Shown: positions 27,890-44,933, counted from the first letter of the stretch. The stretch is DNA of 64,000 bases from Petrotoga mobilis SJ95 (GCF_000018605.1 NC_010003.1:372001-436000), one strand, 5' to 3'. Numbers and translations are program-made. The notes: generated by a model from the sequence alone, not told the origin.

Positions 27890-28324
27890 CTACTCTGATA
27901 CAATCGTTAATTTATCACCTGGAACCACGATACCACCTTCTAAAACTTTGGCGAAAATCCCCTCTGTCAGCATTATATTGTCAGGATTGAATTCTCCAGC
28001 TTTTCCTATTTCAGTAATTTCGAGTAATACACTCTCACCTACTCTAAATTTGGTTCCCACAGGATATTTATATAACTCTATCCCTTCTATGGTTATATTC
28101 TGTGCGAAGTTGCAATATCCATCTTTTAATTTTAAATTCCTTTCTTTTACTATTTTTTCAAGGCTTTCTATGCCCAACAAACTGACTTGTCTATGACTTT
28201 TTCCTGCATGATAGTCACCCTCTACACCAAAGTTAGTTATAATGTTTATCTTATCTTGGATTTTTTTGAGCATTCCTCTTTTTTCACATTTACAAACTTT
28301 GACTACTTTACCTTCTCTAATCAT
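27890..28324 (-). CDS. MOSC domain protein lacking the usual cysteines
   Basis: MOSC domains bind molybdenum cofactor and often carry sulfur on a conserved cysteine. The approximately 144-residue protein has the domain's [19 protein letters not shown] and [11 protein letters not shown] segments and ends [17 protein letters not shown]. Where small MOSC proteins usually have a GKxCHxxC segment, this one reads GKAGEFNP with no cysteine. The start is ATG 28324, which overlaps the moaC stop. The frame is open to 28348. It lies between moaC and mog, which supports a cofactor-related role, but what it transfers or binds is unclear. Confidence 0.82.
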
Positions 28325-28799
28325 CGTTTTCTCTAACATAAGTCCCACTTTTACCTCCCGTCTTTTTCATTAATTTTATATTTTTAATCACCATATCTTT
28401 ATCTACAGCCTTACACATATCGTATACCGTCAAAGCTGCTATTGAAACACCTGTAAATGCTTCCATTTCAACCCCCGTTTTACCTGTTGTTCTCACCGTT
28501 GCGTAGATACCTAAAGTTGTAGCATTTTCAAATTCAAATTTTATATCTATGCCGGTTATCAGCAAAGGGTGACACATTGGGATTAACTCAGATGTTTTCT
28601 TAACACCCATAATTCCAGCCACTCTTGCGGTTTCTAAAACAGCTCCTTTTTCTATCTGACCGTTCTTTATCTTTTCAAGGGTTGATTCTTTTAGCTTTAT
28701 TTGCCCATAGGCTATAGCTTCTCTTTTGGTTTCATCTTTATCTGTAACGTCAACCATCTTTGCTCTACCTTTTTCGTCTATATGAGTAAATTCTTTCAT
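28317..28799 (-). CDS. moaC: Cyclic pyranopterin monophosphate synthase
   Basis: MoaC converts the MoaA product to cyclic pyranopterin monophosphate, the first stable intermediate of the cofactor. The 160-residue sequence has the conserved [22 protein letters not shown] and [22 protein letters not shown] blocks. It follows moaA by 2 nt and overlaps the MOSC gene. Confidence 0.97.
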
Positions 28800-28801
28800 A
28801 C

Positions 28802-29773
28802 CTATCCTCCAATTTGAGACATATTTTTCTTCGGGAAAAAATCATTTTTGTAAAAGTTGTGACTAATGGGTTTAAGAAGAAGAGCTTTTTCAAACTTTTC
28901 TCTCACACCTTCTGAAGAGATCTTTCCATCTTCATCGCGCATATTTACTTCAACATCGCTGGCAAGACAAGGCCTCAAAAATCCATCAGCAGTTAATCTC
29001 ATTCGATTACATGTTGAGCAAAAGTTATGACTAATAGCGGTAATAAATCCTACAGTTCCCTTTGCCCCAGGGACTTTGAAATCCTTTGAGGGGCCATTAT
29101 TTTGTATATTTACAGGGACCATACCCATCTTATCGATAATTATTTCCTTGAATTCGTTTAGAGAAACATAATAATTACCAGAAAGAAGGCTTGTTTCACC
29201 CATAGGCATATACTCAATAAATCTCACATGTAGGTCCTTATCTATTGTGAGATTAACGAAATTTTCCAATTCATTATCGTTGATACCCTTCATCACAACG
29301 GTATTAATCTTTACTGGATTTAAGCCAACTTCAAGTGCTGCTTTAATCCCTTCAATTGCTTGAGAAAATTCGCCCCTTCGAGTAATCGTTTTATAGGTAT
29401 CGGGATTTAAAGAATCAAGACTAATGTTAACCCTAGACAAACCTGCCCTTTTTAAAGCAAATGCATATTTTGGTAGAAGAACGCCATTAGTTGTCATAGT
29501 AATATCTTCAAGTTCAGGAATTTTCCTCAATTCTTTGATTAAATTTACTACGCCTTGTCGAACAAGAGGTTCACCACCAGTGATACGAACTTTCTTTATA
29601 CCAAGTTCAGTACCTACTTCAACGATTTTGATTATTTCTTCATACCGTAGAATACTGCTATGGGTCTTGAAAGTCACACCTTGAGGTGGCATACAATAAA
29701 TACAACGTAGATTACATCTATCTGTTATCGATACTCTAAGATAATCGATACTTCTTCCGTATTTATCAATCAT
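28802..29773 (-). CDS. moaA: GTP 3',8-cyclase (radical SAM)
   Basis: MoaA is the radical SAM enzyme that starts molybdenum/tungsten cofactor synthesis from [11 protein letters not shown] gives the N-terminal 4Fe-4S cluster. FCSTCNR plus a cysteine 13-14 residues later (FLRPC) gives the C-terminal cluster. ITGGEP is present. The family's C-terminal double-glycine survives as the final residues (SQIGG). Its length of 323 is normal. It starts 18 nt after the MoeA-PBP fusion gene. Confidence 0.97.
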
Positions 29774-29791
29774 TATAATTGAACTCTCCTT

Positions 29792-31690
29792 TTATGACAT
29801 TATTTCACCTGTATTATCTGTTCTATAACCCCCCAATGCAATTACTTGGCTCTTAAACTTTTCAGAATTAATAACCTCAAGAATTTTTCCCATCCTGGTA
29901 TCTTGTAGAAAGTCAGTTGGAATTATAAAATCATATCTTTCTTCTAAAAGAGGTATAAAATCCAAATCCATCGCATCGGCAGCTGCCTTTATCCCTAATC
30001 CTACATCTGCAGATTTATTTGCAACGGCTGCTGCAACAGCAGTGTGGGTGAATTCTTCTCTCTCGTATCCTCTAATTGATTTTGAAGGTATCCCCTTTTT
30101 GTTCAACCAATAGTCTAGTAATACGCGGGTACCTGAACCTTTCTGTCTATTGATAAAGTTAATATCTGGACGGATTAAATCCTCTATCTTTCCTAATCCT
30201 AAAGGGTTGTCTTTTGGTACAATTAAACCCTGTTGTCTCCAAATTAAATTAACCATAGTTACTTTTTTATCACCTAAAATCTCTTCAACGTAAGTTTTAT
30301 TGTACGTTCCACTTTGTGGATCCAAAAGGTGGGCTCCAGCCAAATGACACTCGCCTCTTTTAAGCGACATCAATCCTCCCATACTCCCCACAGATTGAAT
30401 GTTAAAGTCAAATCCAAGTTTTTGAGATTTTATTTCGTTAACCAATATGTCTAATGAATAATCATGACTCCCAATGAATAACACGTTTTTTGAAATGGAG
30501 GAGATGGGGTTCAAAATATATATTTTCACCTTTTCGTTGATACCTATTCCTTCGGATTTTTCTGGGACAGGCATAATACCATCTGCATTCACCAGTGACT
30601 CCATGGCAGCCGAACCCCTTTTTCTTGGAACCGCTACGTATTCTCCATCAATAAAAGCTAAATTAACCCTTAAAAATTCTTCCAAGCCAACTTGTGAAGG
30701 AACTTTTCTACGAACAACCGCATTTATATATGGTGTTTCTGGAACGTCCAAACTTAACATCTGATACACAAGGGTTCGTACAAAAATATAATAATTCAGC
30801 AAAGCAGATAGAGGATAACCAGGTATACCAATTACCGGCTTTTCTTTTATAACACCAAGAATGACTGGTTTACCAGGCATTATGTTAATTCCATGTACAA
30901 CAACTCTTCCTACTTCATTTAAAATTTTCTCGGTATAATCTTCCCTACCGGCAGAAGAACCCGCTATAATGATCAAAATATCGTTTTTTTCGATCTCATC
31001 CAGCACTTTTTTCTTGAGATCTTCATATTTGTCGGGAAGGATCTCGGTAATTGAAACTTTTGCTCCCCATTGTTCGCCATAAATTTTCATCATAGTCGAA
31101 TTGAAATCCACAAGTTGACCTTTTTCTGGATCCTGATCGGGAGGAATAATCTCATCACCCGTTGGAATGATTCCTATCAAAGGCTTTTTTTTAACGTTGA
31201 TTTCTTTCACACCTGCTTCTAATAAAGATCCTACATCATAAGGCCTTATCATGTGATTTACTGGGAACATTAATTGCCCTTTCATTACACTTTCTCCAAT
31301 AGCTCTAATATTTTGCCATGGTGTAGCACTTTTTTCTATAATGTAAAAATCACCTTCATCATTTATTTCTTCTATCTTTATAACCGCATTAAATCCTTCT
31401 GGTATCGGATCCCCAGTATCAACTATAACCGCATCTAAACCTTTTTTCAACATCAATGGATTTGTTTTACTGGCTCCATATGTATTTGAAGCTTTAACCG
31501 CTATACCATCCATTGCGGATGCATAATAGTGTGGCCCAAACCTTTTTGCATAGATAGCTTCTGCTGTAACTCTACCGTTAGAATTCTCAACTTTAATATT
31601 TTCTGTTTCAACAGAATAGTCTTTGAAAATCTTTAAATATTCTTCTTTAGCTTTTTCTAAAGAGACTTTTTCTAAATATATTTTACTCAT
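29792..31690 (-). CDS. MoeA-like protein fused to a PBP-type substrate-binding domain
   Basis: Residues about 1-395 form a complete MoeA (molybdopterin molybdenumtransferase) with the IGIIPTGDE, GGSSxG-like AGSSAGREDYT and GKPVILGVI blocks. Residues about 400-632 are a periplasmic-binding-protein-like domain (NVLFIGSHDYSLDILVNEI onward, ending TGEIMS), known from two-domain MoeA proteins of clostridia and archaea. No signal peptide exists, so the binding domain is cytoplasmic and may bind molybdate, tungstate or a cofactor precursor. It is the second of two moeA-type genes in the operon. One may serve Mo and the other W, which is inference. Confidence 0.88.
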   Translation of the reverse strand: MSKIYLEKVSLEKAKEEYLKIFKDYSVETENIKVENSNGRVTAEAIYAKRFGPHYYASAMDGIAVKASNTYGASKTNPLMLKKGLDAVIVDTGDPIPEGFNAVIKIEEINDEGDFYIIEKSATPWQNIRAIGESVMKGQLMFPVNHMIRPYDVGSLLEAGVKEINVKKKPLIGIIPTGDEIIPPDQDPEKGQLVDFNSTMMKIYGEQWGAKVSITEILPDKYEDLKKKVLDEIEKNDILIIIAGSSAGREDYTEKILNEVGRVVVHGINIMPGKPVILGVIKEKPVIGIPGYPLSALLNYYIFVRTLVYQMLSLDVPETPYINAVVRRKVPSQVGLEEFLRVNLAFIDGEYVAVPRKRGSAAMESLVNADGIMPVPEKSEGIGINEKVKIYILNPISSISKNVLFIGSHDYSLDILVNEIKSQKLGFDFNIQSVGSMGGLMSLKRGECHLAGAHLLDPQSGTYNKTYVEEILGDKKVTMVNLIWRQQGLIVPKDNPLGLGKIEDLIRPDINFINRQKGSGTRVLLDYWLNKKGIPSKSIRGYEREEFTHTAVAAAVANKSADVGLGIKAAADAMDLDFIPLLEERYDFIIPTDFLQDTRMGKILEVINSEKFKSQVIALGGYRTDNTGEIMS

Positions 31691-31811
31691 TTATTCACCT
31701 TCTTGAATTCAATTTACCACCTTGAAAAGCTCTTATATAGCGCCCCTTCGCCCCGCTCCCCACCCATAAGGATAAAGGAATTTTAACCCATTTGACCCGA
31801 AGCCCACTCAT
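31691..31811 (-). other. GC-rich spacer between the two moeA-type genes
   Basis: This 121-nt gap is the only large one inside the cofactor operon. It contains an unusually G/C-rich stretch for this genome (minus strand about 31780-31738, including GGGTGGGGAGCGGGGCGAAG). I see no promoter, terminator or gene. It may be a dispersed repeat remnant. Confidence 0.4.
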
Positions 31812-33047
31812 TTAGTACAAGTAGACATCTACAGTTTCCTCTTTATTGAGTCCTTCTTTGTTAGCTTCTATTATTATATAACCATCGGCATAAACAAATG
31901 TAGATATCATTGCTGATTCACCGACTAATGGCTCCGCAATGTAATTTCTTTCAGCACTTTCAATCAATCGAACTGGGACATATTCTTCTCTCCCTTTATC
32001 TGAATCTAGGTTTCTACTTAATTTTGCTTTAATATTACATTTTATTCTTTTTTCTTTTATACCCATTATCTTCTCTACCAATGGTTTAACAATCACCTGG
32101 GTAATGATAAACGACGATGAAGGGTGGCCAGGTAAGCCTAAAATAGGTTTACCTTCAACCATTGCAAAAATCGTAGGTTTACCAGGCTTTATCGTAATTC
32201 CTTGAGACAATACACCAGGTTCCCCTAATGAATTTAAAACTTCCACCGTCATGTCTTTGACTCCTACAGAACTACCCCCAGAGATCAGGATCAAGTCACA
32301 ATCTAAATTGTTTTTTATACTCTCCCTTAGAAAATCAAATTTATCTGGAATTATCCCAACGTATCTAATTTCTGCACCTACTTCTTCTAATGTTGTTCCT
32401 ATTGTGTAACTATTTATATCCCTGATTTCACCTACTCCAAGAACATTTTCCGGGGAAACTAATTCATCTCCTGTTGCAATTACAGCAACTTTTGGTTTTT
32501 TATAAACTTCAACATCAATTATTCCAAGGCCTGCTAGAGCTCCCACATCCTGTGGCCTGATCTTATGGTATTTATTTAAAATTACCTTCCTTTTAGGAAT
32601 ATCTTCACCCTTATAAATTACGTTTTCACCAACTCCAACAGAACGATTGATTTCAATCATTTTTTCGCCAACGTAATCAACGTATTCTATCATAACGACT
32701 GCATTTGATCCTTCTGGCAACATTCCACCCGTCGGAATTTTTACAGCTTCACCAGCTTCTACCATTATCTTTGTTTCTTGCCCCATGAACACTTCACCTT
32801 TAACGTTCAAATAGATAGGCATACTTTCCGAGGCACCAAAAGTATCCTCCGCTTTCACAGCGAAACCATCAACAGTTGATCGACTAAAAGGTGGAAGATC
32901 GATGGGAGAAAATAAATCCTGGGCTAAAATTCTCCCATTGGACTCTTTAAAGTTTATCGTTTCTGATGGCAATAAACCAATATTTATATTTTTATTCACA
33001 ATTTCCCAAAACATTTCTGAAGTATTTAAATCCAAGAATTCAGACAT
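31812..33047 (-). CDS. moeA: Molybdopterin molybdenumtransferase MoeA
   Basis: MoeA inserts Mo or W into adenylylated molybdopterin. The 411-residue protein has the full single-domain set: PPFSRSTVDGFAV, IPTGGMLPEGSNAVVMIE, VAVIATGDELV, LISGGSSVGVKDMT and GLPGHPSSSF, with the C-terminal domain IV. It lies between mobB (15 nt upstream) and the MoeA-PBP gene in the riboswitch-controlled operon. Confidence 0.95.
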   Translation of the reverse strand: MSEFLDLNTSEMFWEIVNKNINIGLLPSETINFKESNGRILAQDLFSPIDLPPFSRSTVDGFAVKAEDTFGASESMPIYLNVKGEVFMGQETKIMVEAGEAVKIPTGGMLPEGSNAVVMIEYVDYVGEKMIEINRSVGVGENVIYKGEDIPKRKVILNKYHKIRPQDVGALAGLGIIDVEVYKKPKVAVIATGDELVSPENVLGVGEIRDINSYTIGTTLEEVGAEIRYVGIIPDKFDFLRESIKNNLDCDLILISGGSSVGVKDMTVEVLNSLGEPGVLSQGITIKPGKPTIFAMVEGKPILGLPGHPSSSFIITQVIVKPLVEKIMGIKEKRIKCNIKAKLSRNLDSDKGREEYVPVRLIESAERNYIAEPLVGESAMISTFVYADGYIIIEANKEGLNKEETVDVYLY

Positions 33048-33062
33048 ACTTAGCCTCCGTCT

Positions 33063-33674
33063 TTATTTGAATAAACCAAGCTGGCAGTACCGAACTTTGA
33101 TGTTTTGATCATCCAACAATTTCCCAAATTTAGGTAATTTGATATTCAATGCCTTACAGATAGCGTGTGCATTAAAACAACTCACTTGTTCAAAATTAAT
33201 CTTGAATTTCATACTGTTTCCGTCTTTGATTAATTCTTCAAGGTTTTCTTTATCGATTATAATATCGGCTTTACTTTTGGCTTTAGTCGCCGATTCTTTT
33301 TTTTGTGTATCATCAGAATCAATGTAAATAACCAAAGTTGGTCTAATAAAATCTAGGATACTGTTCCCTTCAACGATCAAATATTCTATGTCCTCATCTA
33401 AGAGCTTGCGTGCCCTTCTATAACCTTCCAACAATCCTTCATAATTTGTTTTTAGTAAGATTACATTTTGGGCTCCAGATTCTTTAAAAAACGCCGTATC
33501 TTTCCCTTTCTCACTAATAATTGAAGGATCAGCTGTAACTTCTATTTCCTTATTAGTTTTATGGATAGATGTTTTTATCACTCCAACGTGACAGTTTAAA
33601 TTCTTTATCATTTGTGAAATTAAAGTAGATTTACCGACATTGCTCGATTTTCCACCAACAACGATGGTAACCAA
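33063..33674 (-). CDS. mobB: MobB-like GTPase
   Basis: MobB proteins bind GTP and assist attachment of the guanine nucleotide to the cofactor. The P-loop GGKSSNVGKST lies at residues 7-17, followed by GVIKTSIHK. The 203 residues include a C-terminal part ending in a second unknown segment, longer than in E. coli. The start is TTG 33674 behind GGGAG. The gene sits between wtpC and moeA. It is a less certain assignment than its neighbours because small P-loop NTPases resemble each other. Confidence 0.75.
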   Translation of the reverse strand: MVTIVVGGKSSNVGKSTLISQMIKNLNCHVGVIKTSIHKTNKEIEVTADPSIISEKGKDTAFFKESGAQNVILLKTNYEGLLEGYRRARKLLDEDIEYLIVEGNSILDFIRPTLVIYIDSDDTQKKESATKAKSKADIIIDKENLEELIKDGNSMKFKINFEQVSCFNAHAICKALNIKLPKFGKLLDDQNIKVRYCQLGLFK

Positions 33675-33691
33675 AAAAAATCACTCCCATC

Positions 33692-34735
33692 TTAGTAAAC
33701 ATGCACTGCAGAAGCTTTGAATGTAACAAAAATCTTTTTATTTTCTACTAAATTCAACTCTTTCAACGATTGCCTAGTTATGTACACCACCAAAGGAATA
33801 CCGATATCTACAGTAATATGAACTACTGATAATTGTTCATCAATCCGCTTTATCACTCCAGGGAAAACATTCCTAGCACTTGAATCAAAAGGATTTGTAG
33901 ATAACAATATATCTTCTGGTCTGACAGAGATATTAACGTTCCCCATCTTTTCAGAGGCTACACTTATTTTCAATCCATTCACAGAAACATAGGTGCCAGA
34001 ATCATCTTTTATTATTTCTCCTCGAAAAATATTTCTAACCCCTGTGAATCGAGCTACAAAATCAGAATTCGGTTTGTTGAACACATCTTTTGAATCTCCA
34101 TCTTGAATGATCTTCCCGTCTTTCATTATAGCGATTTTATCCGCTAAAGAAAATGCTTCATTAAAATCATGTGTTACATGAATTGTAGTAGTCTTGAGCT
34201 GTTTATGTAAGTTCTTCAAATCTTCTATAAATTTTTCTTTTGTTTGAGGATCTAATGCACTTAAAGGTTCATCTAACAGCAAAATTTGTGGAGAAGTGAT
34301 TAAAGCTCGTGCAAGAGCTACTCTTTGCTTCTCTCCTCCACTTAGATTCTTCGTTTTCCTTGTGAGTAAATGTTCTATGCGAAAAAGCTCTACTATGTTG
34401 TTTAACAGAGATCTTATTTCATCTTTTTTAATTCTCCTCGATTTTAATCCAAAAACAATATTCTCTTCCACATTTAGATGTGGAAAGAGCATATAATCCT
34501 GATAAACCATTCCAACATTTCTCTCTTCAGGAGGTAAATGTGTAATTCTTTTCTCTCCGATAAAAACATCACCAAAGTCAGGTTTTATTAAACCTGCTAT
34601 AATCTCAAGAATCACTGTTTTACCTACACCTGTTGGCCCCAAAATTACAAAATACTCGTTATCTTCGATATTCAAATTGATATCTTCTAAAGAAAACTTT
34701 TTAAATCTCTTCGATATATTCACGATTTTAATCAA
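33692..34735 (-). CDS. wtpC: Tungstate/molybdate ABC importer, ATPase subunit
   Basis: This is the ATP-hydrolysing subunit of the oxyanion importer. Walker A is GPTGVGKT (about residues 32-39), the signature is LSGGEKQRVALARAL and the Walker B context is ILLLDEPLSALD. The C-terminal part from about residue 235 (SVRPEDILL onward) is a TOBE-like oxyanion-binding domain typical of ModC/WtpC. The TTG start overlaps the wtpB stop. The partner WtpA supports tungstate or molybdate as substrate over sulfate. Confidence 0.88.
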   Translation of the reverse strand: MIKIVNISKRFKKFSLEDINLNIEDNEYFVILGPTGVGKTVILEIIAGLIKPDFGDVFIGEKRITHLPPEERNVGMVYQDYMLFPHLNVEENIVFGLKSRRIKKDEIRSLLNNIVELFRIEHLLTRKTKNLSGGEKQRVALARALITSPQILLLDEPLSALDPQTKEKFIEDLKNLHKQLKTTTIHVTHDFNEAFSLADKIAIMKDGKIIQDGDSKDVFNKPNSDFVARFTGVRNIFRGEIIKDDSGTYVSVNGLKISVASEKMGNVNISVRPEDILLSTNPFDSSARNVFPGVIKRIDEQLSVVHITVDIGIPLVVYITRQSLKELNLVENKKIFVTFKASAVHVY

Positions 34736-35537
34736 GCTCGTTTTCCTTCTCTCTACCTTCTATTGAATTCTTTCTGTTTATGAGTGTTAAAAAGATAAAC
34801 ACAATGAGACTTGTTATCACCATAATGGCTGCAACGGGGCTTGAATACTTCAATCCAAATGAAGTAAATCTCTCGTAGATAAGTACCGACGCCGTCATTG
34901 GATGATAAGCTAATATAATAACCGCACCAAATTCAGATAATCCTCTTGCCCACATCATAAGTGAACCAGAGATTAAATGGTTAAAATTCAAAGGTAGCGA
35001 TACTCTGAAGAAAGTTCTCGCAGGGGATGAGCCCAAACTTCTAGCAACCTTTTCAAGTTTAACATCAATAGATCTGAACCCTTCTTTAACTTCATTCACC
35101 AAAAAAGGCATACTGACAAACATCATCGCAACAACTATTCCTGCAAATTCGCCAACGAACTCTATTCCAAATATCGAGAAAAATCTTCCCAGAAAAAATC
35201 TACTACCAAAAACCGTTAAAAGCGCTATTCCTGCTGCTGTATGTGGTATTATAACGGGGATATCTATCAAACTTTCTACAAAAGACTTACCAAAAAAATC
35301 TTTACGAGCAAGCAAGTAAGCCAAAGGTACCCCCAACAATATAGAAATTAAAGTTGCAACTAACGATGCACTGAAAGTAAGCAATATGGAACTGTATACT
35401 TCTTCTTCCTTTACAGTGTCGATAAGAACTTTCGGCTCAACTCCAAAAATAAGCTTAGCCACAGGGGCCGCTATGAAAAACAACAATAGTATCCCCAAAA
35501 AACTAAGTATTAATTCGAACCATGCTTTTTTAATCAT
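34728..35537 (-). CDS. wtpB: Tungstate/molybdate ABC importer, permease subunit
   Basis: This inner-membrane permease has about six hydrophobic segments and the EAA-type loop (VARSLGSSPARTFFRVSLPL) that contacts the ATPase. A GTG at 35546 is in frame, but GGTGGAG and the ATGA overlap with the wtpA stop make ATG 35537 the better start, giving 269 residues. It is translationally coupled on both sides, to wtpA and wtpC. Confidence 0.9.
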   Translation of the reverse strand: MIKKAWFELILSFLGILLLFFIAAPVAKLIFGVEPKVLIDTVKEEEVYSSILLTFSASLVATLISILLGVPLAYLLARKDFFGKSFVESLIDIPVIIPHTAAGIALLTVFGSRFFLGRFFSIFGIEFVGEFAGIVVAMMFVSMPFLVNEVKEGFRSIDVKLEKVARSLGSSPARTFFRVSLPLNFNHLISGSLMMWARGLSEFGAVIILAYHPMTASVLIYERFTSFGLKYSSPVAAIMVITSLIVFIFLTLINRKNSIEGREKENELD

Positions 35538-36495
35538 TCGCTCCACCTTTTAAGAAATCTTGAAGCTCCTGGGGAGCTTTTTCTATGTTTACACCTTCTG
35601 GGGGATTAATTGACGGTTGCCCGTTTTCTTCCATAATGGCTCGGCCTTGTGGACCAATGACGAATTTGATGAAGGCAATTGCTCCCTGTAGATTTGGAGC
35701 ATTATTGGGAATGGTTAGAGCATATACCATAGGTTGCCCTATTTGGGTTATCATTTCACCAGGCTCTTTGCCCGTTACATCAAAAGAAGCAGTTGCATAA
35801 AAATCGGCATACTTTGTACTTTTCAAATTAATTTGTTCTGGTAATTCTACATAGGGCATTCGATGTTGCAATGCCACAGATTTGTAGATGAAAATATAAT
35901 CCAGTTCTCCTGCCTCTAATAGTGCGATTAAATCTGTTTCTTTTGGTCTAACGTTTTTTGGTGGACAGTTATCAGCAAGTTTTTTATATAGACTATCCAC
36001 TTTATAATATTTTTCTGCCAATTTCCAAACAATCTGGCTTCTGTATCCACAAGGATCAGCATTTGGATCCGAATGACCGTACTCAACATCAGGACGCAAA
36101 AGAATCTCATACCAATTGTCAGAATTAATCTCATCTTTGTAACGAGAATCTTCTGTGTACATTATCACCATCTCGTTGTTGGCAAAATTTATGTACCATT
36201 CTGTGTACTCTGGGATCATCAGATTTTCGATGACCGTATAATCCGCAGAACCTATAACGTCCGCTTCTCTTCCAAGATCGGTAACCTTTCTAACAGCTTC
36301 TCTACTTCCTGCAGCTTCCCTAATAACATCTGTTCCAGGATACTGACTTTCAAAGGCTTTTTCAATTTGTGCAAATGGAACGCTTAAAGATCCCGCATGG
36401 AAAACTACAATCTCTCCAGTTATATCTTCAGCCATCATCAACGTCCCAAATAAAAAAACAAATAACATAAATGTGTACTTATAAATGCTCTTCAT
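35530..36495 (-). CDS. wtpA: Tungstate/molybdate-binding protein WtpA
   Basis: This periplasmic binding protein captures the oxyanion for WtpBC. It has a signal peptide (hydrophobic residues about 8-21, cleavage near MAEDITG). The WtpA-type sequence follows: VVFHAGSLSVPF, REAAGSREAVRKV, ADVIGSADYTVIE and GHSDPNADPCGYRSQ. The HSDPNxDPCGYR region favours the WtpA family over ModA. It is first in the ten-gene operon, 145 nt after the Moco-type riboswitch terminator, with the SD GGGGAGAGG. Confidence 0.93.
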   Translation of the reverse strand: MKSIYKYTFMLFVFLFGTLMMAEDITGEIVVFHAGSLSVPFAQIEKAFESQYPGTDVIREAAGSREAVRKVTDLGREADVIGSADYTVIENLMIPEYTEWYINFANNEMVIMYTEDSRYKDEINSDNWYEILLRPDVEYGHSDPNADPCGYRSQIVWKLAEKYYKVDSLYKKLADNCPPKNVRPKETDLIALLEAGELDYIFIYKSVALQHRMPYVELPEQINLKSTKYADFYATASFDVTGKEPGEMITQIGQPMVYALTIPNNAPNLQGAIAFIKFVIGPQGRAIMEENGQPSINPPEGVNIEKAPQELQDFLKGGAND

Positions 36496-36571
36496 TATTT
36501 CCTCTCCCCTTATCTAAATTTTTTTATCTAAGTTTATAAACTCTAAAACTTACTTTAGCAACCCTTTACTG

Positions 36572-36667
36572 TTACATCAACCTAGAAGATTGAGGAAAGG
36601 AGAGCAGCTTAAAAAAATTAATGACATTACAAAATAAAAAAACCGGCGTGTGAAGACACCGGTTCAT
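36572..36667 (-). CDS. Possible leader peptide overlapping the riboswitch terminator
   Basis: A 31-codon frame starts at ATG 36667, 7 nt after GGAAAGGAG, immediately downstream of the aptamer. Its first ten codons run through the terminator hairpin and T-run. The predicted peptide starts MNRCLHTPVFLFC and is hydrophobic and Cys-containing. Ribosomes on this frame would unfold the terminator. Chance occurrence in AT-rich DNA cannot be excluded, so this is a hypothesis. Confidence 0.35.
   Translation of the reverse strand: MNRCLHTPVFLFCNVINFFKLLSFPQSSRLM
36641..36664 (-). terminator. Intrinsic terminator (expression platform) before wtpA
   Basis: On the minus strand, AACCGGTGT pairs with ACGCCGGTT around a CTTCAC loop and is followed by TTTTTTT. 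It lies about 20 nt after the aptamer. GAGACAC just upstream can pair with GTGTCTT in the hairpin, giving an antiterminator alternative. Confidence 0.82.
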
Positions 36668-36679
36668 AATGTGTCTCCT

Positions 36680-36770
36680 TTCCTAATGCGGGAGGCATAG
36701 AAGTTTCCTTCTATACCCTATCGTCTAAGTCACCATAGAATGAATTCCGTAGGTAACCTAGATCGAAGAC
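36680..36770 (-). ncRNA. Moco-family (molybdenum/tungsten cofactor) riboswitch aptamer
   Basis: The minus-strand RNA has an 11-bp helix (TCTAGGTTACC with GGTGACTTAGA) extended by TCG/CGA. A second helix follows, GGTATAGAAG-GAAA-CTTCTATGCC, running into CTCCCGC. The GGAAAC...GCCTCCC segment, the position before the tungstate importer and cofactor operon, and the terminator downstream match the Moco RNA class. These RNAs sense the reduced Mo or W pterin cofactor and usually switch synthesis genes off. The sequence alone does not tell whether it prefers the Mo or the W form. A TATAAT at 36776-36771 gives a start near 36764. Confidence 0.77.
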
Positions 36771-36823
36771 ATTATAAAATGTATATGAAAAAAATTGTTT
36801 TCAAAAGAACTTAAATTTTAAAG

Positions 36824-38056
36824 TTATATATTCACAACTTCTCTCGTAGGAGCCTTAAACATCGAATAACTTAACGCACCTTTTATTGCTTCATTCAATA
36901 GATGGCTTATATCCCATTGATTTTTCATCGCTGCCAAATAAACTCCAGGATTTAGGACTCCTCCAACAAAGATAAAACCAACAAGTTTGCCATCTCTTAC
37001 CAGAATTTTGTGGTAACTTCTACCTTCTTTTTCCTTATAAACATCGTAAGCATCTTCTTTACTAATACCCCCAGTGAAAACAACTTCTCCAAATAAATTT
37101 ACTATGTTTCTAGATACTTCTTTGGGATATTTCCAAGAATACCCCGCCATATTGGTGGCAGCTATCCTTGCTTGTTCCATCGCAACAGGCCACAAGGCAT
37201 GCATTTCATACTCATCTGAAATTAAGTCTATGGATTCCGTCACATCCCCTGCCGCATAAACATCCTTAACAGATGTTTCCATATATTCGTTTACCAAGAT
37301 GCCAGTGTCACATTTGATAGGCGTTTTTTCGAGAAAATCTATACTCGGCTTAACTCCTTTTCCCACAACAACACAACTGCCTTGAATTACTTTGCCTGAT
37401 GCAAGAAAGATGTTTGCGTGATCTCCTTCTTCTTGAACCTTCGTTATGCTTTCACCTGTGATTAACTCCATTCCATTTTCTATTGCCCTTTCAGCAATAA
37501 TTTCTGAACCCTCTTCATCAACAATCTGAGATAACATTCTACGCGATCTTATAACAAAAGTAGCAGGTATATTAAGTTCTGCTAAGGCATCAGCGATCTC
37601 AGAATTAACTAATCCAGCACCAGAAAGTATAACTCTTTTAACGTCACTTTTGTTCAACTTATCTTTCAATTTATCCATATCTGAAAGATTTCTCACCGTT
37701 AACACTAGTGGAGATCCTTCTACTTCCATATCTGGAACATAAGGTTCCGCTCCAGTTGCTATCAACAATTTATCGAAGGAAAATGTTTTGTTTTGTATAG
37801 TTTCTATCTTTTTTCTTTCAACATCAATGTTGACAACCCTTTGCCCCAATAGAAGATTAGCTCTCGACGGAGAGGGTAGAAACATATAATCTCTCTTTTT
37901 CAATTTATTTGACAATAAGTAAGGTAGAGACATTTTACTGTAGGGGAATACTTCTTCGGCGGATAATATAGTTATTTCCCCTTGAGGATCCAGAGATTCT
38001 AATGTTCGAGCAGCATTTAAGCCAGCTGCACTAGCTCCAACAATAACGTATCTCAT
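36824..38056 (-). CDS. FAD/NAD-binding subunit of the aldehyde oxidoreductase complex (AorC-like)
   Basis: This is a pyridine nucleotide-disulfide-type flavoprotein of 410 residues. It has a FAD-binding GASAAGLNAA (residues 7-16), an NAD-binding motif in GAGLVNSEIADALAEL (about 147-162) and a second FAD contact in DVYAAGDVTE. It overlaps the AOR gene by 4 nt and closes the aor operon. In the Aromatoleum AorABC enzyme the third subunit is the same kind of FAD protein and lets the tungsten enzyme use NAD. The same role is inferred here. Confidence 0.82.
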   Translation of the reverse strand: MRYVIVGASAAGLNAARTLESLDPQGEITILSAEEVFPYSKMSLPYLLSNKLKKRDYMFLPSPSRANLLLGQRVVNIDVERKKIETIQNKTFSFDKLLIATGAEPYVPDMEVEGSPLVLTVRNLSDMDKLKDKLNKSDVKRVILSGAGLVNSEIADALAELNIPATFVIRSRRMLSQIVDEEGSEIIAERAIENGMELITGESITKVQEEGDHANIFLASGKVIQGSCVVVGKGVKPSIDFLEKTPIKCDTGILVNEYMETSVKDVYAAGDVTESIDLISDEYEMHALWPVAMEQARIAATNMAGYSWKYPKEVSRNIVNLFGEVVFTGGISKEDAYDVYKEKEGRSYHKILVRDGKLVGFIFVGGVLNPGVYLAAMKNQWDISHLLNEAIKGALSYSMFKAPTREVVNI

Positions 38057-39867
38057 TTTGAAATCTGGACCTCCAATTCTTTAAGTTTTTCTTCTGTGGG
38101 AACACTGTCTTTATCCCATCCTCTTAACTGATAGTATTCATCCAGCATCTTTTCAAGATCTTCTACCTGTCCTTTCGAAGGACCCGTTTTGATTGGTTCA
38201 TTTAATATTCTTGGAGGTAAGGTATCATCCTGTCTTGTAAAACCAGCTTTAAGATTGAAAAGCTTTTCAATATTCCAAATTCTTTCTCCAATTTTCATGA
38301 ACTCTTGGGCATCTATTGAAAAACCTGTTGCAGTTGACACCATCTCGGCTAACTCATTAGCACTGAGACCAAAAGTCGTGAACAAACATATTCCAGAAGA
38401 ATCAAGTGCACCGGTTAAATCTTGTAAGGTTTTAATTATAGCCGCTTTGCCTTCATAAGCGTACTGATCAGCATCTCCCAATACCTCTACGGCTGTTCCA
38501 TATCCTCTGACGTGGCAAGCACCACGATTGCTAGTTGCATATTCTAAACCCATACCTTTGATAGCCCTTGGATCGTAAGCTGGGAACTCCTGTTTCTTTG
38601 CCGACATAGAAAGTTCCGGATGACCATAATGCTCTGCTAAGCGATAGGAACCTTGAGCTAATAATTTCCCAAAATTTCCTTCTTGCTTGCACGCCAATTC
38701 CACGGCTTTTAACATAGCTTCTGCTGAACCAAATCTAAGTTCAAAAGGGGCATCTTCCTTGGGCATATATCCTTTTTCGTACAATTCCATGGCACAGGCG
38801 ACCGTTGAACCCATAGCGATAGTATCGATTCCATATTTATCACAAAGATGATTTGCACTTATCACTGCATCAAGGTCTGAAACACCACACATTGCACCAA
38901 ACGACCAAACTGATTCGTATTCTGGACCTCCTCCAATAGTTCCTTTATACGGTCCACTTTTTACTACCGTTACCCTACCACAAGCTATTGGACACTCAGC
39001 ACATCCTTCATTTCTAATTAAATTTTTCTCCCTTAGAGTTTCTCCACTAATTTTATTTGCCTCTGGGAAATAAGCATCTTGGGCATTACGAGTGGGGAAC
39101 CCACCAACACCATTGATAACATTCACCAACATTGCGGTACCTAACATAGCAGCCCCTTGACCTGCAAAGGCATCTTTGCTTAAAATATCTCTAGCCTTAT
39201 AAACTGCTTTCATAAAAGCTTCAGGATCAGCCACTGGAGTATCTTCATTCCCTCTAACGGCTATCCCTTTTAGGTTCTTGCTTCCAACTGCGGCGCCAAC
39301 ACCGGTTCTTCCAGAAGCCCTATGACCATTGAACATTACGCTAGAGATAGGAGATAATTTCTCGCCAGCCGGTCCAATCGTCATGGTTTCAGCCAAGGGA
39401 TGTGTTTGCTCTCTTATCAATTCGTCACTTTCGTCAGCCAATTTCCCCCATATTTCCTTTGCGGATCTGAATTCTACTTTACCTTTGTTAATCCATATAT
39501 ATACGGGTTCGGCTGATTTTCCTTCAACAACGATCATATCGTATCCTGTGTGTTTCAAAGCGGGGCCAAAATGTCCACCTGCATTAGAGCACGCAATAGC
39601 TCCATTCAAAGGACCTTTTGTGATTACCATAGTTCTTCCAGAAGAAGGAGCTAATGTTCCATCTAAAGGACCAGTGGCAAAAATGACCTTGTTTTCTTCA
39701 GAGAGAGGATCTACTTTCGGATCGATTTCTTCCAACAACAAACGAGTCCCATACCCTCTGCCCCCTAAATATTTCTGAGCCCACTCTTCATTCAATGGTT
39801 CACTTTTTACTTCTTTGGTTGTTAAGTTAACTCTCAATAATTTACCTTTGAATCCACCTTTTATCAT
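38053..39867 (-). CDS. Tungsten-containing aldehyde:ferredoxin oxidoreductase family subunit (AorB-like)
   Basis: This enzyme interconverts aldehydes and carboxylic acids at a W-bis-pterin site with one 4Fe-4S cluster. The 604-residue protein has the family N-terminus (GFKGKLLRVNLTTKEV, KYLGGRGYG), the AOR domain and the cluster ligands CAECPIAC plus a later Cys in LDSSGICLF. The pterin-binding region YDPRAIKGMGLEYATSNRGACH is intact. The length is typical. It follows the ferredoxin-like gene by 1 nt. The substrate range cannot be read from the sequence. Amino-acid-derived or fatty aldehydes are plausible. Confidence 0.93.
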   Translation of the reverse strand: MIKGGFKGKLLRVNLTTKEVKSEPLNEEWAQKYLGGRGYGTRLLLEEIDPKVDPLSEENKVIFATGPLDGTLAPSSGRTMVITKGPLNGAIACSNAGGHFGPALKHTGYDMIVVEGKSAEPVYIWINKGKVEFRSAKEIWGKLADESDELIREQTHPLAETMTIGPAGEKLSPISSVMFNGHRASGRTGVGAAVGSKNLKGIAVRGNEDTPVADPEAFMKAVYKARDILSKDAFAGQGAAMLGTAMLVNVINGVGGFPTRNAQDAYFPEANKISGETLREKNLIRNEGCAECPIACGRVTVVKSGPYKGTIGGGPEYESVWSFGAMCGVSDLDAVISANHLCDKYGIDTIAMGSTVACAMELYEKGYMPKEDAPFELRFGSAEAMLKAVELACKQEGNFGKLLAQGSYRLAEHYGHPELSMSAKKQEFPAYDPRAIKGMGLEYATSNRGACHVRGYGTAVEVLGDADQYAYEGKAAIIKTLQDLTGALDSSGICLFTTFGLSANELAEMVSTATGFSIDAQEFMKIGERIWNIEKLFNLKAGFTRQDDTLPPRILNEPIKTGPSKGQVEDLEKMLDEYYQLRGWDKDSVPTEEKLKELEVQISK

Positions 39868-39868
39868 T

Positions 39869-40357
39869 TTAAGCTCCCCCCTTTACTAAATCTTTTGCGA
39901 TTTCTTTAAGGCGGGTGGCAGTTTCCCTTACTTTCACATTTGTGATATCTTCTACTTCTTCGTAAGACAAAGCTCCTGGATAGCACACTTTAATACACGC
40001 TGGATCCCCACCACAGTTATCACATTTTATTACCTCTTTCCCTGTGTGATCCAATTTTATGGAACCCCACGGGCATGCTACGATGCACTGTTTACATCCG
40101 ATACATTTTTCCTTGTTAAGTTCTACCACCCCTGTTTCAGGGTTCTTAGTCAGAGCGGAAGTAGGGCATACTTCTTCACAATATGCTCTCTCACACTGCA
40201 GACAAACACTTGGGACGAAGGTTAAATCTTCCCAAAACTCGTTCACTTTGATTCGAGAGTCAAGGGGATTAAACTTTCCCGTATGCTCAAAAGAACAAGC
40301 ATACTCACATGCCCTACATCCCGTGCATTTTGCCTGATCCAACATCAATACTTTCAT
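39869..40357 (-). CDS. Four-cluster ferredoxin-like subunit (AorA-like)
   Basis: The 162-residue protein has sixteen cysteines in four 4Fe-4S patterns: CTGCRACEYAC, CLQCERAYCEEVC, CIGCKQCIVAC and CDNCGGDPACIKVC. This is the HycB/DmsB-type electron-transfer fold. It carries electrons between the tungsten subunit and the flavin subunit or ferredoxin. ATG 40357 lies 5 nt after AAGGAGGAG. An in-frame start at 40375 has no SD. It is first in the aor operon. Confidence 0.88.
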   Translation of the reverse strand: MKVLMLDQAKCTGCRACEYACSFEHTGKFNPLDSRIKVNEFWEDLTFVPSVCLQCERAYCEEVCPTSALTKNPETGVVELNKEKCIGCKQCIVACPWGSIKLDHTGKEVIKCDNCGGDPACIKVCYPGALSYEEVEDITNVKVRETATRLKEIAKDLVKGGA

Positions 40358-40386
40358 GCACACTCCTCCTTTCAATATTTTAAAAT

Positions 40387-40407
40387 GTTAACTGAACTAC
40401 AGTTAAC
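40387..40407 (-). promoter_or_regulatory. Inverted repeat in the aor leader
   Basis: GTTAACTG-N5-CAGTTAAC is a perfect 8-bp inverted repeat between the promoter and the aorA-like SD (about +56 to +76). It could be an operator, or an mRNA hairpin. It is not a good terminator for the aor direction. Confidence 0.5.
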
Positions 40408-40469
40408 TAAAAAAAAAGAAAACTTTGTTACATTCAAACTCCTATTTTTGAAAAATTTATATTGTTGTT

Positions 40470-40631: not shown

Positions 40632-41303
40632 TCATTGAAGGTTAATTATTTCAAGGGAATAATCTTTTAAATCTATGAGTAGTAACTTGTTGTCGAGGGT
40701 ATCTTTTCTTCCAATTATTACTTTAATTGTTTCTATTACTTGAAGGGATGCCATAATCGATACTACAGGTGAGATAACAGAGACCTTTTCTTGTGTTGTA
40801 TCAATTTCTCCGAATATATCTTTTAAAGACGAAGTTTTACCTGGGATTATGGTTGTCAATTGACCATACCATTGATTAACGCCTGCATGAATATAAGGTA
40901 CGTTGGATTCCCAAGCAAGTTGTTCAAGAATATATCTCGTTTCGAAATTATCAAGAGCGTCTAATATGACGTTCACATCTTTGGGTATTTTACTCTCTTT
41001 TGAAATTTTTTCTACCTTTGTTTCTATTTTCGTAGGCAAGTTAAAAGATTCAAGAATTTTTTTAGCTTGATCAACTTTGTATTCACCAATGCTATCCACG
41101 CCATATAAAACTTGACGGTTTAGGTTAGAAGGTTCAACCTTATCATAATCCACCAAATATATTTTTTTTACACCAACCCTTTGTAACTCCAAAGCCTGAT
41201 GAGTTCCAAGACCTCCAGCACCACCAATATAAACAACAGCTTGTTTTAACTTTAAAGACTCCTCTTTTGAGAACAACCCTTTTTGTCTTTCCAAGTAATC
41301 CAT
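40632..41303 (-). CDS. ThiF/MoeB-type E1-like adenylyltransferase
   Basis: Such enzymes adenylylate the C-terminal Gly-Gly of a MoaD or ThiS partner. The protein has the ATP-binding GGAGGLGTHQALEL (residues 27-40), the Asp in LVDYDKVEPSNLNRQVL and KVDQAK. At 223 residues it is short and lacks the CxxC zinc pairs usually present in MoeB: the equivalent segment reads PGKTSSLKDIFG. It directly follows a MoaD-like gene, so they are probably partners in cofactor sulfur transfer. The gene's SD is formed by the MoaD Gly codons. Confidence 0.85.
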   Translation of the reverse strand: MDYLERQKGLFSKEESLKLKQAVVYIGGAGGLGTHQALELQRVGVKKIYLVDYDKVEPSNLNRQVLYGVDSIGEYKVDQAKKILESFNLPTKIETKVEKISKESKIPKDVNVILDALDNFETRYILEQLAWESNVPYIHAGVNQWYGQLTTIIPGKTSSLKDIFGEIDTTQEKVSVISPVVSIMASLQVIETIKVIIGRKDTLDNKLLLIDLKDYSLEIINLQ

Positions 41304-41304
41304 A

Positions 41305-41580
41305 TCATCCTCCTCCAGAAGGGGGAAAAATTGTTATTTCATCTTTATTTTCTACCAACGTATCCAATCCTTGTAAATGGCGAATATTTCTTCCATTTAA
41401 TAATACTATTGTACCGCTTTTAAGTTCCCCGTTTTCTAGTAGTTTTCTACTAAAGTAATTATCAAACTCTTGATCCAATAATTTTATTATTTCTTTAACA
41501 GATTTCGATCCTGATAATTGGTAATCGACTTCATCCTTTTTCAAGTCAAGCTTTATTAGGGAAAAGAATTTAATTTTCAA
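41305..41580 (-). CDS. MoaD-like sulfur carrier
   Basis: This small ubiquitin-fold protein (91 residues) ends PPSGGG, giving the C-terminal Gly-Gly that is thiocarboxylated by an E1-like enzyme to donate sulfur to molybdopterin. The core VLLNGRNIRHLQGLDTLVENKDEITIFPP is typical. It starts with TTG overlapping the mobA stop (TTGA), and its last codons serve as the SD for the E1-like gene. No moaE was found in the window. Confidence 0.87.
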   Translation of the reverse strand: MKIKFFSLIKLDLKKDEVDYQLSGSKSVKEIIKLLDQEFDNYFSRKLLENGELKSGTIVLLNGRNIRHLQGLDTLVENKDEITIFPPSGGG

Positions 41581-42170
41581 ATCTTTTCACTCCTTTCCAG
41601 ATTCATTTCCAATTTTTCAATATCTTCCTTATAATTTATATTGAAAAACAATTTTTCAGGCTCTCCAATTTCTCTTATAATGGTTTCTTTTATTATTCTA
41701 ACCTTTACTTTGGGGAAAAAACTCTTCAACTTTAATTGATCATTTATTAGTGAAGCATTGATAAAAGGCAAACATTTTTTGCTATAAACAGCGGCAAGTG
41801 GCTCAAGGTAAGAGTTGTACTCGGGCACAAGAACGTCATAATCTTTCTTCTGTAAGTTTACAAATTCAAAAAATTCACTTGTCAAAAAAGGCATATCACA
41901 GGCTGTCAAAAAGTTGTATTCGCTATCAGAACAGGTTAAACCCGTAAGCAACCCGCCTAATGGGCCTTTATTTGGTATTATATCCTCACAAAAAAATACA
42001 TCTTGCAAAAAAACATACTCTTTTACGTTGCCTATTATGTATACTTTTTCAAATGCATTTTTTAGACCTTTAACAATCTGTTCTATCAAAGGTCTTCCGT
42101 TGATTGTTTCCATTGCTTTATTAGTCCCAAATCTGCTACTCTTGCCTCCTGATAGAAGTAAAGCGTTCAT
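41577..42170 (-). CDS. mobA: MobA-like molybdenum cofactor nucleotidyltransferase
   Basis: MobA attaches GMP to the pterin cofactor to make the dinucleotide form used by formate dehydrogenase-type enzymes. The nucleotide-binding N-terminus is LLSGGKSSRFGTNKAM (LxGGxSxRxGxxKA signature), followed by CDMPFL. The length of 197 residues fits. The gene overlaps the end of the formate dehydrogenase-like gene by about 35 nt, so the enzyme and its cofactor maturation gene are coupled. Confidence 0.88.
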   Translation of the reverse strand: MNALLLSGGKSSRFGTNKAMETINGRPLIEQIVKGLKNAFEKVYIIGNVKEYVFLQDVFFCEDIIPNKGPLGGLLTGLTCSDSEYNFLTACDMPFLTSEFFEFVNLQKKDYDVLVPEYNSYLEPLAAVYSKKCLPFINASLINDQLKLKSFFPKVKVRIIKETIIREIGEPEKLFFNINYKEDIEKLEMNLERSEKI

Positions 42171-44889
42171 CAATTAAAACCTCTCTTCTTGAAACTCTTT
42201 TTTCAACTTTTTCTAACTTAACTGGGGTTATTTTTAATTCGGGTATCTTTGCTTTTAAATCATAAACACGATTGGTAAGTTTATTGGCTGGACTTTCCGC
42301 ATAGTGAAAAGGCATGAAAAGTTGGCCAGGTTGAACTCTTTGTCCAACCTTTGCATAGGTTTCAACCGTTCCTTGAGGCGAAGTTATCCTAACTCTATCT
42401 TTATCTTTGATCCCCAATTTTTTTGCATCTTCTATGTTTATTTCGACATAAGAGTCTGGTTCATGCTTGTCAATAGGATAGGATCGCCTGGTCATAGTAC
42501 CTGTATGGAAATGGTATAACATCCTTCCTGTCATTAAGGTAAAATTGTACTTTTCATCGGCTTCTTTTTCTGGAGGAGCAAACTCAACTGGAAAAAACTT
42601 GCCTTTCCCACGAGAAAAACCATCCTTATGCAAATATTTTGTACCTGGATGATTAACATCAGGGCAAGGCCATTGCAAACCACCTTTTTCCAATCTTTCA
42701 TAACTTATTCCGCCGTATAATTTTGATACTTGTGCGATCTCATCCATAATTTCAGAAGGAGAATTATATTTCATTTCATAACCCATTTTATTAGCCAATT
42801 TAGTTAATATCTCCCAATCTGCTTTAGCCCTTCCAGGAGAGTTGACCGCTTTTCTCACCCTTTGTATGCGTCGTTCGGTATTTGTAAACGTACCCTCTTT
42901 TTCAGCAAACGACGCCGCTGGCAAAACTACATCTGCAAATTGTGCACTTTCAGTCAAGAATATATCCTGCACTATTAAAAAATCCAAACTTTCTAGAGCT
43001 TTTTTAACATGGTCTTGATCTGGATCAGACAAAAAAGGATTCTCACCCATTATGTAGAGAGCTTTTATCTTTTTACCTGCTTCTTCAAACATTTCTGTTA
43101 ATGTCAATCCTTCTCTATCAGTTAATTTTACACCCCAATAATTCTCAAACTTTTCTCTAATTTTGGGATCACTGACTTTTTGATAACCAGGATAAACATC
43201 AGATAAAGCCCCAACATCACAAGCACCTTGCACGTTGTTTTGTCCCCTTAATGGATTAACTCCTGTGCTTTCAAAACCAACGTTCCCAGTTAAGAGTGCA
43301 AGATTCGTAAGAGAAAGTACGTTGTTAGTTCCGTATTTATGTTGAGTTATTCCCATTGCAAAATATATTGCTGCTTTTTCGGCTAAACCAAACATTTTTG
43401 CAGCTTCGATTATCTTATCTGCTGGCACACCTGTAATCTGGGATACTTTAGATGGTGTATAACCTTCTATTACTTTTATATAACTTTCAAATCCTTCCGT
43501 TCTTTCTTCAATGAATTTTTTATCAAGTAACCCTTCGTTGACGATAACATTCATTATTCCATTTATTAAAGCCACATCTGTTCCAGGCTTGTGATGTAAT
43601 GAAATGTCAGCAATTTCAGAAAGTTCTATCTTCCGAGGATCTGCTACTATTAAATGGGTCCCGTTTTTCTTCGCCTTTTTTATCTTGCTTCCAATTACCG
43701 GATGATTCTCCGTTGGATTTGAACCTATAACAAATATTACATCACTTCCCTCTATTTCTGATATAGAGTTGGTCATGGCTCCCGAACCAAATGCCATCCC
43801 TAATCCAACAACAGTGGAGGCATGACAAAGTCTGGCACAGTGATCTACAGAATTTGTACCAATTACTGCCCTCATAAATTTCTGCATAATATAGTTTTCT
43901 TCATTTGTACATTTTGCTGAGCTCAACCCACCTATTGAATCACTTCCATACTTTCCTCTTATATTCAATAGTTTTTCTGCAACATAATCTAATGCTTCTT
44001 CCCAACTAACTTTTTCAAAATGTCCATTTCTCTTTATCAAAGGGTCAGTCAATCTATCAGGGTGATTGACAAAATCATAACCAAAACGGCCTTTCACACA
44101 GCTTTCTCCATGGGGGTTTGGAGAGTTTTCGTTGTAAACCGAACCAACTTGAATTATTTTATTGTTTTTGGTTCTTAATTCCAATTGACAACCAACCCCA
44201 CAGTAAGGACAGGTTGTTATAGTTTTTTTAAATTCGTAATAACGCCCTTTTCCTTTGGAAGGAATATAAGTAAGAGCCCCCGTTGGGCACATTTCAACGC
44301 ATTGCCCACAAAAGACGCATGGAGAATCTTTCCCTCCCAGATCTTCATCAAATGGAGGGCTAACTTTAGTTTCAAAACCTCTATTGACAAAATCCAATGC
44401 GTTACACATTTGAATCTCTTTACATGTTCGTACACATTTGCCACAAAGTATGCATTTGTCTGGATCAAGCTGTATAAATTCATTCTGAGCTTTTATCTCA
44501 AAACGTGGGAGTTTCTTTGTTCCGAAGGTGGATTCTTTAATTCCATATTCGTAAGCTAAATCCTGAAGGACACAGTTTCCATTAGCTTCACATGTCATAC
44601 AATCCATTGGATGATCAGAAACTAGTAAATCTACAACCGTCTTTCTAGCCTCGATAACCCGTTCACTATCCGTTAAAACCTTCATCCCATCAGTTACTGG
44701 TGTAACACAAGAGGCAACTAATTTACGATTATTTTCCAATTCTACCAAACACATTCTACAAGAACCTACATCGGATAAATGTGGACTATGACATATGGTA
44801 GGAATATAGATACCGTTTTGTTTTGCAACCTGGAGTATAGTTTGGCCTGGTTCAGCTTCGTAATCATTATGATTTATAGTAACTACCAA
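42136..44889 (-). CDS. Formate dehydrogenase-like molybdopterin oxidoreductase (Cys form, NuoG-like N-terminus)
   Basis: In order this has: a 2Fe-2S domain (residues 1-80, CHSPHLSDVGSCRMCLVE and a later Cys), a NuoG-type His-Cys-rich domain (DHPMDCMTCEANGNC), two 4Fe-4S clusters (CILCGKCVRTC, CVFCGQCVEMC), the FDH-type 4Fe-4S motif CPYCGVGC, the catalytic MGD domain and a C-terminal MopB domain. The metal ligand is Cys355 in DHCARLCHAST, so selenocysteine is not used. The start is TTG 44889 behind AAGGGG. No NuoE/NuoF-type partner genes or fdhD lie nearby, so electron acceptor and partners are unknown. Confidence 0.87.
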   Translation of the reverse strand: MVVTINHNDYEAEPGQTILQVAKQNGIYIPTICHSPHLSDVGSCRMCLVELENNRKLVASCVTPVTDGMKVLTDSERVIEARKTVVDLLVSDHPMDCMTCEANGNCVLQDLAYEYGIKESTFGTKKLPRFEIKAQNEFIQLDPDKCILCGKCVRTCKEIQMCNALDFVNRGFETKVSPPFDEDLGGKDSPCVFCGQCVEMCPTGALTYIPSKGKGRYYEFKKTITTCPYCGVGCQLELRTKNNKIIQVGSVYNENSPNPHGESCVKGRFGYDFVNHPDRLTDPLIKRNGHFEKVSWEEALDYVAEKLLNIRGKYGSDSIGGLSSAKCTNEENYIMQKFMRAVIGTNSVDHCARLCHASTVVGLGMAFGSGAMTNSISEIEGSDVIFVIGSNPTENHPVIGSKIKKAKKNGTHLIVADPRKIELSEIADISLHHKPGTDVALINGIMNVIVNEGLLDKKFIEERTEGFESYIKVIEGYTPSKVSQITGVPADKIIEAAKMFGLAEKAAIYFAMGITQHKYGTNNVLSLTNLALLTGNVGFESTGVNPLRGQNNVQGACDVGALSDVYPGYQKVSDPKIREKFENYWGVKLTDREGLTLTEMFEEAGKKIKALYIMGENPFLSDPDQDHVKKALESLDFLIVQDIFLTESAQFADVVLPAASFAEKEGTFTNTERRIQRVRKAVNSPGRAKADWEILTKLANKMGYEMKYNSPSEIMDEIAQVSKLYGGISYERLEKGGLQWPCPDVNHPGTKYLHKDGFSRGKGKFFPVEFAPPEKEADEKYNFTLMTGRMLYHFHTGTMTRRSYPIDKHEPDSYVEINIEDAKKLGIKDKDRVRITSPQGTVETYAKVGQRVQPGQLFMPFHYAESPANKLTNRVYDLKAKIPELKITPVKLEKVEKRVSRREVLIDERFTSIRRQE

Positions 44890-44933
44890 AACATAAGACC
44901 CCTTTCATTATTAAATTTACGAAAAATTCAATA

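Follow-up and report, generated by a model that had tools for sequence, protein, structure and literature searches.

A predicted three-subunit Class III tungsten aldehyde oxidoreductase, possibly NADP(H)-linked, in a tungsten module of Petrotoga mobilis

The aorABC genes of the thermophilic, fermentative bacterium Petrotoga mobilis SJ95 very probably encode a tungsten oxidoreductase of Class III (WorLSN), which is already known from the literature, with its electron use assigned by homology. They were analyzed in a window of 64,000 nucleotides (GCF_000018605.1 NC_010003.1:372001-436000), where all features located below lie on the minus strand, and genome-wide searches covered one contig of 2,169,548 bp. 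Together with relatives from Caldisericota and Atribacterota, this enzyme could form a branch of three-subunit tungsten AORs that works with NADP(H) and has spread horizontally among anaerobes, and whose expression or tungsten supply is set by a tungsten-cofactor riboswitch; we hold this broader reading tentatively, at slightly less than even confidence.

The three genes span positions 36824-40357, and the coordinates and junctions reported in the initial annotation were confirmed. The aorA gene (worS; 39869-40357, ATG at 40357) encodes a polyferredoxin subunit of 162 aa, and its stop is 1 nt apart from the start of aorB (worL; 38053-39867), coding for the W-bis-MPT catalytic subunit of 604 aa, which overlaps by 4 nt (ATGA) with aorC (worN; 36824-38056), coding for a FAD subunit of 410 aa. 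A strong Shine-Dalgarno sequence (AGGAGG, 40370-40365) precedes aorA and a sigma-70-like promoter candidate, TTGACT-17-TAAAAT, recognized by its consensus match, is located at 40498-40470; both are largely conserved in three sister genomes, in which the gene order is also repeated at 92-99% identity, far beyond chance. The set is separated from neighbors of the same orientation by 274 nt of intergenic sequence on the upstream side and 328 nt on the downstream side. The genes are thus predicted to form one operon, since their tight spacing and the single upstream promoter-like site are what co-transcription, taken for granted in the initial annotation, can be deduced from. The aorA leader also contains a perfect 8-bp inverted repeat, GTTAACTG-TAGTT-CAGTTAAC (40387-40407), which was considered as a conserved operator and discarded, being absent from the three sister genomes.

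AorA contains Fer4 dicluster domains and 16 cysteines in four motifs, sufficient for four [4Fe-4S] clusters, and its early description as a four-cluster ferredoxin stands; C14 is missing from only one (L038) of the 15 aligned homologues. The best PDB match is 8c0z_C, the AorA of Aromatoleum (126 bits). The protein ends in a 26-residue C-terminal tail, and its AlphaFold model (pLDDT 42) is too poor for judging a C-terminal helix or the formation of filaments. AorB displays both AOR domains above cut-off (AFOR_N, PF02730, 260 bits; AFOR_C, PF01314, 493 bits), and alignment with solved AORs indicated that it keeps the second-shell residues T244, E318, Y431 and H452 and all the cluster cysteines (C289, C292, C296 and C494), as well as the pterin contacts listed for the Aromatoleum enzyme (AaAOR). 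AorC has a Pyr_redox_2 domain (PF07992, 182 bits); its best PDB chain by sequence is 8c0z_E, the Aromatoleum AorC (154 bits, 123 for the next chain), which was also the top Foldseek match (E 1e-40, TM 0.90) of an AlphaFold model with pLDDT 87. AorC is accordingly modeled as a one-FAD protein of the NOX/BphA4 fold. Sequence, fold and gene order therefore agree with the AorABC-like three-subunit enzyme originally proposed.

WOR Classes II-V are now defined, Class III combining WorL, WorS and WorN in 179 members (PMC13328260, 2026). Since these classes exist and the Moorella operon is known (PMC6365974), the contrast drawn initially with ferredoxin-only classical AORs is dated. AorB corresponds to a WorL with both AOR domains, the adjacent AorA to a WorS with four predicted [4Fe-4S] clusters and the adjacent AorC to a FAD-binding WorN of Pyr_redox_2 type. 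Neither the single WorL lacking neighboring WorS and WorN that defines Class I (PfAOR type), nor the NuoE/F/G-like WorABC module found inside Class IV operons, describes aorABC. In the main texts searched, Thermotogota are not named. Our literature search on AORs of Petrotoga and Thermotogae returned mainly a Thermotoga thermarum genome paper, which covers AOR and tungsten transport of T. thermarum and T. lettingae but not the present operon; in the literature searched we found neither a clade common to Petrotoga, Caldisericota and Atribacterota, nor the loss of the NAD-selecting residue discussed below, nor a link between AOR and riboswitch in Thermotogota.

The only characterized Class III enzyme is AorABC of Aromatoleum aromaticum (AOR_Aa; PDB 8c0z; clade 87; PMC13328260), with which the Petrotoga system shares gene order, three subunits, a four-cluster AorA, an AOR-type AorB with all second-shell residues and a FAD subunit of the same fold. 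Unlike AaAorB, however, Petrotoga AorB lacks the insertions RPSDGKP and FTVKNNPKYWG flanking the cluster cysteines, one of which contains P287, a residue touching AorC; both insertions occur in AaAorB and in one further homologue (L046) and are absent from Petrotoga and its relatives, a criterion drawn from the present alignment rather than from a publication. Moreover, Petrotoga AorC is devoid of the NAD-selecting Glu of its Aromatoleum counterpart, and the locus adjoins a tungsten riboswitch and WtpABC in a thermophilic anaerobic host. The Moorella thermoacetica enzyme (AOR_Mt) is reported to have an Aromatoleum-like operon structure and a third subunit with FAD (PMC6365974, PMC12096430); compared by description only, its AorA is said to lack the C-terminal extension, in contrast to the 26-residue tail of Petrotoga. 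Class I, which includes the enzyme of Pyrococcus furiosus and the single-subunit AORs found in other Thermotogota, has the same catalytic fold and residues, but no AorA or AorC, and belongs to a different clade, although its Thermotogota members are preceded by the same riboswitch class as the Petrotoga locus; the Fe-bridging Glu332 and His383 of the Pyrococcus enzyme are replaced by Ser and Leu in Petrotoga AorB.

In the proposed mechanism, AorA, AorB and AorC would form a complex in which the tungsten-bis-pterin site of AorB oxidizes aldehydes to acids, or carries out the reverse reaction when a strong low-potential reductant is supplied. Electrons would pass from the AorB cluster through the four AorA clusters to the FAD of AorC, and from there to a nicotinamide cofactor. 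The enzyme itself is a horizontal acquisition and sits in a tungsten module that also provides pterin synthesis, WtpABC uptake and a formate dehydrogenase.

In the fold shared by BphA4 and putidaredoxin reductase, an acidic residue ending the second Rossmann strand favors NAD. In rice MDHAR, removal of the same Glu increased the affinity for NADP 16-fold (PMC5031999). Petrotoga AorC reads I169-R170-S171-x-R173 (FVIRSRR) at this point, as against VVEMGDR in AaAorC and VETQPR in BphA4. None of the 11 rows of the set comprising Petrotoga, Caldisericota, Atribacterota, the deltaproteobacterium and Clostridia retains the acid, which is present in AaAorC and L046. At the next position, Petrotoga and one Atribacterota row have Arg, and other relatives have His, Ser, Thr or Val. 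Because the NAD-selecting acid is missing, the cofactor may be NADP(H), and with the following Arg the use of NADP(H), or of both cofactors, appears likelier than that of NAD(H) alone; judging from these residues, we lean modestly toward it. The link between aldehydes and nicotinamide suggested initially is thus retained by homology, whereas the naming of NADH as the cofactor is called into question. The same complex could still depend on NAD(H) alone, like its Aromatoleum counterpart, a lesser but serious possibility, given that AaAOR, the one Class III enzyme characterized, uses NAD+ (PMC6365974, PMC13328260) and that residue rules for NAD versus NADP have exceptions in the fold of AorC; the consistent loss of the acid across the 11 rows speaks against it.

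Other roles for the enzyme appear less probable. The closest solved protein to AorB is not AaAorB (598 bits) but 9mqx_D (722 bits), part of a complex that also includes a NuoF-like chain (9mqx_B). On the basis of that chain and of PMC13328260 we take PDB 9mqx to be the WOR1 complex (Acetomicrobium/Eubacterium, Class IV); a literature search for a paper citing this entry found none. WOR1 also has a similar polyferredoxin. The likeness of the catalytic subunits is what could recommend a bifurcating or confurcating AorABC, in which ferredoxin and NAD(P)H would be coupled in a single step, as by WOR1. WOR1, however, has a three-subunit NuoE/F/G-like bifurcation module, where the Petrotoga operon has a single FAD subunit of the NOX/BphA4 fold, and no such module occurs in or beside aorABC: the three NuoF-family matches in the genome are found at distances of 0.25-0.82 Mb, one of them being RnfC and the other two forming part of HydABC-like sets. 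The Aromatoleum enzyme is not described as bifurcating either. The electron confurcation considered in the initial annotation is therefore not supported, because the bifurcation module is lacking, and we regard it as very improbable. The genes for RnfC and RnfD are present around 662847 of the genome (locus L075, G000:C1), and together with the HydABC-like sets they would make ferredoxin-NADH exchange possible without the AOR.

The same Rnf and HydABC-like genes would also suit a physiological role in reducing acids through aldehydes to alcohols, powered by ferredoxin or H2 and with AorC as a side entrance. The Moorella enzyme was indeed discovered as a carboxylic acid reductase, and AaAOR is described as reducing acids when given H2 or strong reductants (PMC9295118). 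On the other hand, no alcohol dehydrogenase occurs in the cluster, and under standard conditions nicotinamides are not strong enough donors to reduce acids; we regard acid reduction as an unlikely main role. AorB working alone with ferredoxin, while AorA and AorC serve as separate carriers, would recall the single-subunit AORs of other Thermotogota and the abundant free AorAB protomers in AaAOR preparations (PMC10413684); yet the tight three-gene order is conserved in four phyla and the genome contains no close second copy of AorC, so that we give this arrangement hardly any credence. A three-subunit complex delivering electrons from aldehydes to a nicotinamide cofactor remains the preferred reading.

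AOR-domain matches occurred in 39 of 103 Thermotogota genomes, but a close AorA lies beside the AOR in only five, four of the same genus and a fifth (G003); the Petrotoga genome has one AOR. In other Thermotogota belonging to the same family or to family f7, the best matches are single-subunit AORs of the Pyrococcus-like type, with genes for MoaD and HesA following in most cases. The closest matches outside the phylum belong to Caldisericota (71-77%), Atribacterota (71-72%) and a deltaproteobacterium (61%), and the aorA-aorB-aorC order recurs in all three groups as well as in G003. In the AorB tree, which was built without the Moorella AOR, Petrotoga, Caldisericota, Atribacterota and the deltaproteobacterium form one clade with 100/100 support, and the AorC tree is divided in the same way, though less well supported. 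The hypothesis that the AORs of Thermotogota arose once, with Petrotoga-type and Pyrococcus-like sequences united in one clade, was rejected (p 5e-9). Given the cross-phylum clade and this rejection, aorABC has moved between phyla by horizontal transfer, in either direction. The phylogeny called for in the initial annotation separates AorB from the Pyrococcus-like AORs. It also shows AorB in a supported clade distinct from AaAorB, but the AU test rejected a joint clade neither with the Aromatoleum AOR (p 0.21) nor with WOR1 (p 0.18).

Two further loci were noticed among the homologues. Plasmid pTLIE01 (32 kb; L072) of the oil-well bacterium Thermovirga lienii carries an AOR of the Pyrococcus-like, single-subunit kind together with genes for MoaD and radical SAM proteins, and is a possible vehicle for AOR transfer. 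On a plasmid of Azospirillum lipoferum (NC_016586.1 517649-526843; L074:11650-20844), aorA, aorB and moaD are followed by genes for a NuoL-like and an antiporter-like protein, NuoB, complex I subunit 1, a ferredoxin and NuoC, and by one for a [NiFe] large subunit in which the two CxxC pairs that bind Ni (CGIC, CISC) are present, with hypA nearby; in L069 and L070 the operon starts in the same way. This gene set is predicted to encode a membrane-bound aldehyde-to-hydrogen complex, or "aldehyde hydrogenlyase", for which a literature search found no paper.

The tungsten module extends on both sides of aorABC. Downstream lie wtpA (35530-36495), encoding the tungstate-binding protein (NF003196, 404 bits, cut-off 355), the wtpB permease (34728-35546) and wtpC ATPase (33692-34735) genes, assigned by gene order and synteny, and a candidate MobB-like GTPase domain (33063-33674) barely exceeding the Pfam cut-off. 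Cofactor synthesis is represented by two moeA copies recognized by family search, a plain one (31812-33047) and, adjoining it, one fused to a C-terminal PBP-like domain (29792-31690), and by moaA (28802-29773), moaC (28317-28799), a MOSC-domain protein (27890-28348) and a MogA/MoaB-type molybdopterin-binding protein (27396-27878). Upstream of aorA, family searches identified a HesA/MoeB/ThiF-type adenylyltransferase (40632-41303) and mobA (41577-42173), on either side of a MoaD-type sulfur carrier (41305-41580; TIGR01687, above cut-off), which elsewhere has the role of AorD/E or WorX. The next gene (42136-44889) encodes a formate dehydrogenase alpha subunit, likely the second W/Mo enzyme of the module; though NuoG-like at its N-terminus, by its score (TIGR01591, 911 bits) it belongs to the formate dehydrogenase equivalog. 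No beta subunit was seen beside it, and its electron partner is possibly an unlinked HydB-like protein encoded at 777 kb or 1232 kb of the genome (G000:C1).

In one sister genome (G050) the segments equivalent to window positions 28650-40467 and 41598-44897 are missing between flanks kept at about 90% identity, with loss of aorABC, wtpABC, mobB, both moeA, moaA, part of moaC, mobA and fdhA; the scar (L087:15380-16990) retains moaD and a frameshifted hesA, and the deletion begins just downstream of the aorA promoter. In G051, a genome less closely related, the genes for the alpha-amylase and the beta-propeller protein are immediate neighbors. The tungsten module behaves as all-or-none. In our reading, aorABC was acquired jointly with its tungsten supply genes.

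Between aorC and wtpA, and thus preceding wtpABC, lies the only RF01055 (Moco/Tuco) riboswitch of the genome (36659-36780; 87.5 bits, gathering 36), in whose alignment the P3 columns are deleted, as expected for the tungsten-cofactor type. The P3-less form has been tied to tungsten-cofactor metabolism (Regulski et al. 2008, PMC2408646). An intrinsic terminator of 10 pairs (36640-36665) overlaps the riboswitch 3' end as the likely expression platform and suggests an off-switch, by which the RNA would probably shut down tungstate uptake when the cofactor is plentiful. The riboswitch accompanies AOR in the family of Petrotoga, being found in 10 of 10 AOR-bearing and 0 of 11 AOR-less genomes, counts that refer to related genomes and not to independent events. 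It is situated directly upstream of aorA in the Caldisericota, Atribacterota, deltaproteobacterium and G003 loci (L031-L035, L038, L058), and just upstream of aorB in the single-subunit group.

The sole characterized Class III enzyme is of mesophilic origin. A relative from a thermophile that probably prefers another nicotinamide would be of practical use in acid reduction or cofactor regeneration. Furthermore, the strict co-occurrence of AOR and P3-less riboswitch within one bacterial family gives new backing to the role in tungsten-cofactor sensing that was proposed for this RNA in 2008, and does so from a phylum that the text of PMC2408646 does not mention.
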